The translations under genes were made by a program, and so were the position numbers. 21,009 bases of DNA, from the NCBI RefSeq assembly GCF_000003605.2, contig NW_003142802.1, positions 10,437 to 31,445 on the forward strand. The letters run 5' to 3'. Shown here piece after piece: positions 7,101 through 8,519 of the stretch (position 1 is the stretch's first letter; the number at the start of each line of letters is the position of its first letter). Below the pieces are notes generated by a model. The model did no database searches and was not told the origin of the DNA. It saw only the letters and a list, made by a program, of their open reading frames with translations. The DNA comes from Saccoglossus kowalevskii. Taxonomy: Eukaryota; Hemichordata; Enteropneusta; Harrimaniidae.

Positions 7101-8519
7101 TGAAACAGAAATTTTTGAAAAAAATAAACTAATTATTGGCAGTTTAAAAATAACATGGGATGCCAGAAATAATTTTTTAAAATGAATCTCAATTGTATGA
7201 ATTTTGCTCATTTTCAAATTTGAAATGACCACCAAAATTTACTGCTTGCCCGCAGAAATTCAAACAGTGCTTTACGCCAACATACTCAACAAACTATGTC
7301 AATCCGGCAACGATTTAGAAATAAACTATGTCAATCCGGCAACGATTTCGAAATAAACTATGTCAATCCGGCAACGATTTCGAAATAAACTATGTAGTGG
7401 CAGGTTTAAAGCTTCAAAGAAATAAACATGTCTTTGTTTTCATGTAAACATTTTCAGGGTTTATTTATTTGAAATTTTCACTCAGAAAAATATCAAGAAT
7501 TTGTAGCATTTTCAAAATTTGCATTTTTTTCTATTCTGTGTTCAGTGCCATCTTGCATAAATAATATACAAAGATACAACAATTAACACAATCGTTTTTC
7601 AGCAAATACTGAATATTTTCAGACCATTATACCCACAATATAACATTTGTACCGAACTGACTGAACATGTGGGTTTTCCACTGTAGAAGCTATGTTACTC
7701 TTGAGCAGGATGTGGTACTATCAAGTTCATAGGACATTTATACATCCATATTTCCACTGTACTCACTGTACTTAAACTCAGCATCAGTCTTTTTGTCTGT
7801 CTCCTCTTTTCAATCAGCTGGACACAAACTTCTCTAACCCAATTTACGAGACCACGTTGTGCAACGAAAACACTCCAATTACAACAGTTACTGAGCCCGC
7901 CAAGGAGCAACCTTACACAGAGCGAACGCCAATCGTTAGCGCAACACTGGAAGATGACGATGATGCGAATGATTCCGAAGTTTAACACAAAACTCATTTT
8001 GCATCTTTAGGTTGTTGTCTTCTTTAAATTGATGTTCTTCCCTTCCTGTATACTATGCCTCTCAGCACACTGTTAGGACCTGTCAATCGCTGTCATCAAC
8101 TATATCATGCGCACGCCATTTTTTGTTATCCCTCGTTTCATTTTGTCTATTCTATTATTAATTTTAACAGTTCTTTAAAATGTTTAATGCAATCCTGTAT
8201 GTTGGCGATGCTTCCACTTTTTTGTAAGAAATGTTTATTTTACCCATCATGCATGTGTTTCTAATATGTGTTTGTTATTTGTTTCCTCCATCTATATTTT
8301 CTGTAGCCTACCAATTTCTCAAATCCTATGTATGACACGCTATACTCTGGTGGTCCTAGCGCCTCCTCTTCACTCGCAAGTCTTGAAGAGAAAAAAGAAA
8401 ATTTACTTTTAAAAACAGAAGATGAAACAACGCCACTAAACCCGAATGATGGCGAAGATGGTGATCCGAATGATGTTGATCCAGAAAATCCGAAAGAGAG
8501 CTCGCCAATTTTATGCTGA
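1015..8519 (+). CDS. LRP1: LRP1-like LDL-receptor-related protein, C-terminal part (multi-exon, 5' partial)
   Basis: This is the 3' end of a gene for a large type I endocytic receptor of the LDL-receptor family. Joining 1015-1138, 1886-2008, 2721-2825, 3303-3428, 4847-4929, 5402-5489, 5927-6080 and 8307-8519 gives 337 residues in one frame. In order these are an EGF remnant and four EGF-like modules (about residues 1-170), a Ser-rich stalk, a hydrophobic helix (189-210) followed by YRRR, and a cytoplasmic tail. The tail has GFQHKRM, NVEIGNP, LDPDK and [10 protein letters not shown], which I recognise from the LRP1 tail and which separate it from LDLR, VLDLR and megalin. NPxY-type motifs bind PTB-domain adaptors; YxxL and the later LLL are endocytic signals. 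The LDL-A repeats, beta-propellers and furin site lie upstream of the window. An alternative last exon at 7818-7985 is annotated separately. Confidence 0.93.
1169..1301. repeat. 24-bp minisatellite directly after an LRP1 5' splice site
   Basis: The unit ctgaccagcccactctgata plus ccaa repeats about five and a half times, with the first copies slightly divergent. It starts about 30 bases after the donor at 1139. It keeps two reverse-strand frames open with a repeating [12 protein letters not shown] peptide, which is a repeat artefact rather than a gene. Confidence 0.92.
1886..2008 (+). CDS. LRP1: LRP1 exon: EGF-like module junction
   Basis: The acceptor is gatttcag before 1886 and the donor is gtgagt at 2009; both junctions are phase 2. 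The exon finishes one EGF module ([10 protein letters not shown]) and begins another ([10 protein letters not shown]). The apparent ATG ORF that starts at 1737 reads through the intron into this exon and is not an independent gene. Confidence 0.9.
2161..2235. repeat. 33-bp tandem repeat, about 2.3 copies
   Basis: Copies begin ttatgtacaataagtataat at 2161 and 2194, with a partial third at 2227. It lies in the intron at 2009-2720. Confidence 0.85.
2721..2825 (+). CDS. LRP1: LRP1 exon: EGF-like module junction
   Basis: The acceptor is tgttctatag before 2721 and the donor is gtaatt at 2826, phase 2 on both sides. It encodes [10 protein letters not shown], with the Gly-Trp-x-Gly turn typical of the last EGF loop, then [11 protein letters not shown]. 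No ORF of useful length marks it because it lacks an ATG; it was found by reading the frame between splice sites. Confidence 0.9.
3303..3428 (+). CDS. LRP1: LRP1 exon: EGF-like module junction
   Basis: A strong polypyrimidine acceptor (ttttttttcag) precedes 3303 and the donor is gtaagt at 3429. Both junctions are phase 2. The exon encodes [10 protein letters not shown] closing one EGF module and [12 protein letters not shown] opening the last full one. Confidence 0.91.
3510..3685. mobile_element. 176-bp inverted-repeat MITE in an LRP1 intron
   Basis: GTAAAATCTGTATTAGAAGC at 3510-3529 returns inverted at the right end (3663-3685), with one difference in the next few bases. The interior repeats a GCGGCTTCTAAT-like word several times, both as the terminal hairpin and near 3570 and 3645. 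No ORF is present and the target duplication is unclear. Confidence 0.65.
4360..4415. mobile_element. 56-bp miniature relative of the 902-bp TA-flanked element, in an LRP1 intron
   Basis: TA-CCGT at the left and ACGG-TA at the right bound about 50 bases that follow the left end of the element at 17957. The shared stretch runs through GCCCATG(T/C)CTGGGCAAA and a following C-rich tract ending in CAC. It looks like a very short internally deleted copy of the same family, within the intron at 3429-4846. Confidence 0.6.
4847..4929 (+). CDS. LRP1: LRP1 exon: last EGF loop and Ser-rich juxtamembrane stalk
   Basis: The acceptor is tttttttttag before 4847 and the donor gtaagt begins at 4930. It closes the last EGF module with [10 protein letters not shown], then encodes a hydrophilic stalk ending SSDSSS, which could carry O-glycans. 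The exon ends in phase 1, unlike the phase-2 EGF junctions before it. Confidence 0.88.
5402..5489 (+). CDS. LRP1: LRP1 exon: single transmembrane helix
   Basis: The acceptor tattttcccag precedes 5402 and the donor is gtatgt at 5490. The 28 whole codons encode one hydrophobic span of about 22 residues rich in Ile, Val and Leu, ending in the stop-transfer sequence YRRRAR. This orients the protein with the EGF modules outside the cell. Phase 1 in and phase 2 out agree with both neighbours. Confidence 0.93.
5927..6080 (+). CDS. LRP1: LRP1 exon: proximal cytoplasmic tail with NPTF motif
   Basis: The acceptor ctttttgtag precedes 5927 and the donor gtaact starts at 6081; the exon ends at a codon boundary. 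It encodes [21 protein letters not shown] and an acidic stretch ending [11 protein letters not shown]. The order matches the proximal half of the LRP1 tail. The first NPxY position is NPTF at residues 239-242, with Phe in place of Tyr and a Tyr two residues later. An apparent ORF running on to 6287 is read-through into the intron. Confidence 0.93.
6481..6512. repeat. Short hairpin in the LRP1 intron
   Basis: TATTTTCACT at 6481-6490 is exactly complementary to AGTGAAAATA at 6503-6512, with a 12-base loop. Similar ttcactg and cagtgaaa words lie nearby, so it may be part of a decayed element. Confidence 0.4.
7291..7396. repeat. 32-bp tandem repeat, about 3.3 copies, upstream of the alternative LRP1 exon
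   Basis: The unit begins aaactatgtcaatccggcaa at 7291, 7323, 7355 and (partial) 7387, and carries two CpGs per full later copy. It is in the intron about 420 bases before the alternative terminal exon. Copies differ at a single base, so the expansion is recent. Confidence 0.93.
7818..7985 (+). CDS. LRP1: LRP1 candidate alternative terminal exon (55 codons plus stop)
   Basis: A strong acceptor (a pyrimidine-rich stretch then caatcag) precedes 7818. The upstream donor is phase 0, so this exon joins exon 7 in frame and reads 55 codons to TAA at 7983-7985. It begins [13 protein letters not shown], parallel to [12 protein letters not shown] of the usual last exon, so the two look like tandem-duplicated terminal exons. 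The tail lacks YxxL and dileucine motifs, is acidic near its end (EDDDD) and stops at DSEV, a class I PDZ-ligand pattern. It contains no ATG, so an ATG-based ORF scan misses it. I see no AATAAA between it and 8307. A weak donor-like ag/gttgtt at 8010/8011 could splice it onward with the stop retained. Real use in mRNA is inference. Confidence 0.7.
   Translation: MDTNFSNPIYETTLCNENTPITTVTEPAKEQPYTERTPIVSATLEDDDDANDSEV
8307..8519 (+). CDS. LRP1: LRP1 last coding exon: distal tail with NPMYDTL and leucine motif
   Basis: The acceptor tattttctgtag precedes 8307 and the frame continues from phase 0 at 6080. It encodes [16 protein letters not shown], then [11 protein letters not shown] and LLL (residues 300-302), and ends PILC before TGA at 8517-8519. 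LDPDK joined to PTNFSNPMY reproduces the LRP1 tail order. YDTL fits the YxxL endocytic signal and overlaps the NPxY. The last third is an acidic Pro/Asn/Asp-rich extension (NPND, DPND, DPEN) that goes beyond the vertebrate-type ending I know. Confidence 0.93.

Follow-up and report, generated by a model that had tools for sequence, protein, structure and literature searches.

Uptake, polarity and scaffold binding all distinguish LRP1 from megalin (LRP2), and much of the difference is attributed to their cytoplasmic tails. Whether one receptor gene could end in either kind of tail is the question raised by the 3′ end of an LRP1 orthologue in the hemichordate Saccoglossus kowalevskii, where the last intron holds a candidate second terminal exon (positions 7818-7985) upstream of the ordinary one. 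The window, meaning the whole stretch of 21,009 nucleotides that was analysed, covers positions 10437-31445 of contig NW_003142802.1 in RefSeq assembly GCF_000003605.2, which comprises 572 Mb in 4830 contigs. We hold, with somewhat more confidence than doubt, that 7818-7985 is a real and long-maintained alternative terminal exon of LRP1, and that its use would switch the receptor by splicing between an LRP1-type and a megalin-type tail, changing its trafficking.

A candidate second terminal exon in the last intron of LRP1

The plus strand of the window carries the 3′ end of the gene, and its assignment to LRP1 is firm on sequence grounds for the part inside the window (the 3′ end, without the upstream ligand-binding part), because the juxtamembrane and last exons match LRP1 baits printed in the portion of PMC2823744 drawn on here. 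The juxtamembrane exon resembles one bait when compared by eye, and the normal last exon is identical to the second (C2) at 20 of 33 residues. The LRP1 features found in the window are EGF-like repeats (EGF_2 in Pfam, 30.3 bits against a cut-off of 22.1), one transmembrane segment, and a tail of LRP1 type in its juxtamembrane part and distal NPxY. Each of the six exons upstream of the tail is preceded by AG (the first at 1013-1014) and followed by GT, and a single open frame runs across their junctions.

The alternative exon opens at 7818, directly after ...tgtctcctcttttcaatcAG, and 321 bases (7986-8306) separate it from the normal last exon. In silico splicing of either terminal exon to the seven exons before it gives one continuous open frame. 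The acceptor at 7818 has 13 pyrimidines among the 16 positions from -5 to -20, equal to the normal acceptor at 8307, and is one of five among the 85 AGs examined at 6111-8299 that share the top pyrimidine value. A good acceptor, an open phase-0 frame of 55 codons, a stop of its own and coding constraint were thus all found, and the preliminary description of this DNA, which had proposed a hidden alternative terminal exon of LRP1 here, appears sound in this respect.

A chance open frame is ruled out by codon use, a step in base composition and a simulation. Codon use in the alternative exon gives a log-odds of 16.6 bits; the highest value among 872 stop-free 165-nt frames from non-coding parts of the window, which were taken from both strands and in many cases overlap, is 6.7. 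The codon table was built from the remaining LRP1 exons and the zinc-finger frame nearby, with the alternative exon left out. The exon has a G+C content of 0.464, compared with 0.299 for the intron before it (6080-7817), the richest 168-nt stretch of which reaches 0.393; taken over the entire window with its coding parts, a value of 0.464 is reached in 6.6% of 168-nt stretches. None of 1000 introns simulated with a first-order Markov model attained the ten-residue match score of 49 (the best scored 29) when any AG with a phase-0 continuation was counted and scored against the ten-residue block of the normal exon, and elsewhere in the window this score peaks at 28 on the minus strand and 17 on the plus strand.

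A DNA search of the assembly with the alternative exon returned a single match, the exon itself. Neither terminal exon alone matches a Pfam family, Rfam gave no match at gathering score, and sequence searches of the PDB returned one weak, unrelated match for the alternative exon (E 1.3) and none for the normal exon or for the human LRP1 tail. Pattern scans for relatives in viral_contigs and genome_contigs, whose collections are viral, bacterial and archaeal and not animal, produced 17 and 94 matches, respectively, none of them confirmed, and a scan for bacterial promoters and terminators is uninformative for an animal gene. The intron that holds the alternative exon also contains a minisatellite at 7291-7395, in which a 32-bp unit is repeated 3.3 times with 98% matches.

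What the two terminal exons share

A block of ten codons, TNFSNP-I/M-Y-E/D-T, is common to both terminal exons, beginning at residue 3 of the alternative exon and residue 2 of the normal exon. Its first and second codon positions are identical in 10 of 10 codons each and its third positions in 1 of 10. Judged by this pattern, the block is old and protein-constrained, because third positions have changed while first and second positions have not, and a recent or long-dead copy would look different; the age given to it in the preliminary description, which called the duplication ancient, agrees with the third positions. Because the block was chosen for protein similarity, the codon-position pattern alone cannot exclude a chance likeness, which is excluded by the simulation described above.

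Past the block, the 45 residues that follow NPIY in the alternative exon show no similarity to the normal exon (shuffled sequences did as well in 2123 of 3000 cases with local alignment and in 1557 of 3000 with global alignment), and a direct-repeat search of the region did not pair the two terminal exons. Similarity along both exons, as expected of tandem-duplicated mutually exclusive exons, extends over ten codons only. Of the earlier proposal that the alternative exon is a tandem duplicate of the last exon, the part concerning the ten shared codons therefore stands, and the part concerning the rest, unrelated by shuffling, does not; tandem duplication of the whole exon is unsupported beyond the block.

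Exchange of tail motifs and likeness to megalin

The normal tail carries FSNPMY, with NPMY at 8322-8333 overlapping YDTL at 8331-8342, followed by LLL at 8403-8411 and the end PILC. In the alternative tail, a motif scan found that FxNPxY is kept, that YxxPhi and LL are each present zero times, and that the end is DSEV; FSNPIY is followed by ETT, so this tail is without YxxL. The main consequence predicted from the two exons, which is absent from the preliminary description, would be the loss of YxxL and LL and the gain of a PDZ ligand motif. Among the 717 stop-to-stop frames of at least 20 amino acids in the window, an end of the form [DE][ST][DE]V occurs in one, the alternative exon, and any class I end in 26. 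The proximal motif of the LRP1 tail, at 5994-6005, is NPTF, and the bait printed in PMC2823744 has NPTY at this place. The distal NPxY, swapped by the two terminal exons, would therefore be the sole tyrosine-bearing NPxY of the tail.

The alternative exon has both megalin-type features, FxNPxY and a C-terminal S/T-X-Phi PDZ ligand motif. Human LRP2, in 9cwm_A, contains TTNFENPIY and ends KEDSEV, its last four residues being those of the alternative tail, and the LRP2 chains in 8em4_A and 8jut_A, which we take to be the mouse and rat proteins, respectively, end DSDV. BLASTP aligned the whole alternative exon with the human LRP2 tail, 30 of 67 positions being identical (E 1e-5, valid for this one comparison). 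After NPxY, none of 3000 shuffles of the alternative end matched human LRP2 as well, and with the last four residues held, 4 of 3000 (local) and 3 of 3000 (global) did so. The corresponding counts for mouse LRP2 were 282 and 170 of 3000, rising to 578 and 849 when these four residues were held.

The two ends behave in opposite ways towards the two receptors. Against the LRP1 bait, which has 36 residues and is without the final part of the tail, 2752 of 3000 shuffles of the short, acidic, low-complexity alternative end did as well, compared with none of 3000 for the normal end; against human LRP2, 1863 of 3000 shuffles of the normal end did as well, and the normal exon shows no likeness to the human, mouse or rat LRP2 ends. 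Under eight alignment settings, 0-2 of 2000 shuffles equalled the match of the alternative end to human LRP2, and 0-26 of 2000 when the last four residues were held; with these residues free, the ranges were 22-1359 of 2000 for mouse LRP2 and 29-1590 of 2000 for rat LRP2, the low values all coming from global alignment. The alternative tail has megalin-like motifs, and a megalin end is one possible source of it.

Proposed splice-site choice and the 3′ end

Between the terminal exons (7986-8306) there is no AATAAA or ATTAAA, and one variant hexamer, AAGAAA, lies at 8226. A poly(A) signal belonging to the alternative exon was for this reason rejected. Because no such signal separates the two exons, the choice between them is probably one between competing 3′ splice sites with a shared 3′ end, in which the single phase-0 donor at 6080 would be joined to either of two acceptors. 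The alternative transcript would then carry the normal last exon as 3′ untranslated region (UTR), and with the alternative stop thus inside the last exon, decay of the transcript would not be expected. The two tails had earlier been called mutually exclusive, which holds in that each exon has its own stop; no special mechanism is needed, as two 3′ splice sites suffice.

No full-consensus donor follows the alternative stop in 7986-8306. The hexamer TGCATG, presumably an RBFOX-type site, occurs between the acceptors (8248-8255) as the only plus-strand copy in the intron. It was given no weight as a sign of splicing regulation, as the window holds 27 copies on both strands against 19.4 expected, a count reached by 5 of 100 shuffles.

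Proposed effects on receptor trafficking

Use of the acceptor at 8307 would give the ordinary LRP1 tail, in which FxNPxY overlaps YDTL and a leucine run resembles a distal dileucine. Use of the acceptor at 7818 would give a tail that retains FxNPxY, predicted to dock PTB adaptors, and that has no YxxL or leucines and ends in the megalin-like PDZ ligand -DSEV. The switch may thereby convert a fast-internalising LRP1 into a slower receptor, held and recycled by PDZ scaffolds and perhaps apical. A basolateral role of the LRP1 tyrosine motifs is suggested by a sentence of PMC3368875 and by the NPXY statement of PMC3429044 given below. Transcription of the alternative exon, adaptor binding and the trafficking result are all steps that we infer; slower, scaffold-tethered uptake is suggested by the literature on YXXL and dileucine signals, on NPXY, on LRP2 and PDZ scaffolds, and on the cytoplasmic domain of megalin.

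In the portions of that literature drawn on here, the main endocytosis signal of LRP1 is described as YXXL with a distal dileucine, and NPXY as a docking site for adaptors (PMC11325810, PMC4754494). Mouse fibroblasts with inactivated NPxYxxL showed almost 25% less internalisation and a defect in slow recycling, and the same paper cites minireceptors with inactivated YxxL that recycle in a non-polarised manner (PMC3368875). For LRP2, binding of the PDZ scaffold NHERF1 through an S/T-X-Phi motif has been predicted (PMC13140602), and the receptor has been linked to PDZ scaffolds more generally (PMC3429044). The cytoplasmic domain of megalin is described as essential for its apical distribution (PMC9630597), and NPXY motifs have been tied to basolateral distribution (PMC3429044).

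Alternative explanations and points of doubt

Two accounts of the origin of the alternative exon are compatible with the splice-switch reading. The last exon may have been duplicated in tandem, its NPxY end being copied once, the rest drifting and -DSEV arising by convergence; this is close to an even prospect. The exons are adjacent and in the same phase, and the ten-codon block stands at nearly the same distance from the splice junction in both (one residue off), which would fit such a copy, but the dissimilarity past the block speaks against it, and TNFxNPxY is found in LRP2 also, so that the block need not derive from the neighbouring exon. A megalin-type end, either inherited from an ancestral gene that preceded the split of LRP1 and LRP2 or acquired from an LRP2 gene, is a possible source that we regard with more doubt than belief. 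It would account for TNFxNPIY and DSEV being common to the alternative exon and LRP2, and for the crossed pattern after NPxY, in which the alternative end aligns with human LRP2 only and the normal end with the LRP1 bait only. Against it stand the lack of a significant match to the mouse and rat LRP2 ends when the last four residues are held, the incomplete LRP1 bait, and the shortness and skewed composition of the sequence compared.

Other accounts would deny the exon a role in making a second tail. It is highly improbable that it is a dead relic which is no longer spliced: this would explain why it has no AATAAA or ATTAAA of its own, but 55 codons remain free of stops behind a good acceptor with coding-like codon use, and a long-dead copy would not have preserved all 20 of the first and second codon positions in the block while 9 of its 10 third positions changed. 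Nor is it likely, to judge from the downstream donors, that 7818 serves a regulatory poison exon, subsequently spliced to 8307 so that its stop would lie upstream of a junction and the level of LRP1 would be lowered by decay. Candidate donors exist at 8197 (GTATGT) and 8224 (GTAAGA), each with 5 of 6 consensus intron bases and more than 200 nt past the stop, but their exon-side bases are CT and TT, not AG, and such a role has no need of a constrained 55-codon FxNPxY frame with a PDZ-motif end.

Several observations weigh against the splice-switch reading itself. The alternative exon reaches the next exon without an AATAAA or ATTAAA. Shuffling its sequence yields a class I PDZ end in 4% of cases. 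Outside FxNPIY and the final four residues, its likeness to LRP2 reaches significance with the human protein (9cwm) only; with these four residues held, 256-1462 of 2000 shuffles did as well against mouse LRP2 and 255-1793 of 2000 against rat LRP2 across the eight settings. In PMC3368875, NPxY and the tyrosine of YxxL were mutated jointly, and YxxL not by itself. Binding to PDZ-domain proteins, PSD-95 among them, has also been reported for the ordinary LRP1 tail (passages of PMC11325810 and PMC3429044), and contact with PDZ domains may thus be shared by both tails. Nor is a PDZ motif always a signal for the apical side: the calcium pump variant PMCA4x/b became ectopically apical in collecting-duct cells when its PDZ-binding motif was deleted, according to the portion of PMC9307954 drawn on.

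Comparison with known systems

The tail encoded here is like that of vertebrate LRP1 in that the juxtamembrane and normal last exons match the printed baits (GFQHx, PTNFxNPxYxTLYxGG, SLAS and leucines) and unlike it in the proximal NPTF and in the second terminal exon, whereas the literature available describes one tail; a review of LRP1 (PMC11325810) contains neither of the strings 'splic' and 'exon' in its main text. The LRP2 tail resembles the alternative tail in TNFxNPIY, in the last four residues DSEV and in having no YxxL directly after NPxY, but the gene here is LRP1 by its upstream tail, and the stretch between the motifs is significant against human LRP2 only. Mammalian LRP4 also combines one NPxY with a PDZ-binding motif, and its Drosophila homologue is without them (PMC8006230, a likeness drawn from its description in part of that text).

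Splicing alters the tail of another family member, ApoER2 (LRP8), through a cytoplasmic proline-rich exon, which in the portion of PMC5331069 drawn on is an inserted segment and is not presented as a second C-terminus that carries an NPxY of its own. In integrin alpha6A/B (PMC5930856) and PMCA a/b (PMC9307954), splicing at the 3′ end alters or removes a C-terminal PDZ ligand, as parts of these papers describe; unlike the case presented here, these are unrelated proteins and their two ends keep no common NPxY. Splice-switched C-terminal PDZ ligands are hence already known, and no report of an alternative LRP1 C-terminus, megalin-like or other, was found in the portion of the open-licence literature consulted.

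Features of the window

The coordinates of the LRP1 features are collected in Table 1. A minisatellite at 1187-1301, in which a 24-bp unit is repeated 4.8 times with 98% matches, lies shortly 3′ of an LRP1 EGF exon. A single long frame of 641 amino acids, measured between stops, occupies 15668-17593 on the plus strand and contains eight matches to C2H2 zinc fingers; it may be a zinc-finger gene with few introns that lies downstream of LRP1.

Table 1. Positions of LRP1 exons and associated signals in the window
Feature	Position	Strand	Remarks
Six upstream LRP1 exons	1015-1138, 1886-2008, 2721-2825, 3303-3428, 4847-4929, 5402-5489	+	EGF-like repeats, linker, transmembrane segment
Juxtamembrane tail exon	5927-6080	+	Ends FNLDPDK (AAG), phase 0; donor GTAACT at 6081
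Polypyrimidine tract and AG acceptor of alternative exon	7790-7817	+	No AG in -14 to -3, like the normal acceptor
Alternative terminal coding exon (candidate)	7818-7985	+	55 codons and TAA (7983-7985), phase 0; in last LRP1 intron
FSNPIY (FxNPxY adaptor motif) of alternative tail	7830-7847	+	Motif scan
DSEV, class I PDZ ligand, C-terminus of alternative tail	7971-7982	+	Motif scan
Inter-exon stretch	7986-8306	+	In the alternative transcript, 3′ UTR if both forms use one downstream poly(A) site
Normal LRP1 last exon	8307-8519	+	70 codons and TGA (8517-8519); preceded by ...attttctgtAG
First downstream AATAAA, likely shared poly(A) signal	8785-8790	+	

Implications for LRP1 and megalin

It is conceivable, although we consider it rather unlikely, that one gene in this lineage holds both tail types that vertebrates split over two, so that splicing would fit the same giant ectodomain either with a fast, basolateral LRP1-type tail carrying YxxL or with an apical, scaffold-tethered megalin-type tail carrying a PDZ ligand. 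If this arrangement is old, the division of labour between vertebrate LRP1 and LRP2 would in part have been a splice choice, later split among paralogues or lost from LRP1. If the alternative exon is used as proposed, gene models that give LRP1 one C-terminus would omit an isoform in this lineage, and the swap of ends, with ectodomain and NPxY constant, would be a natural experiment on the role of each tail signal.

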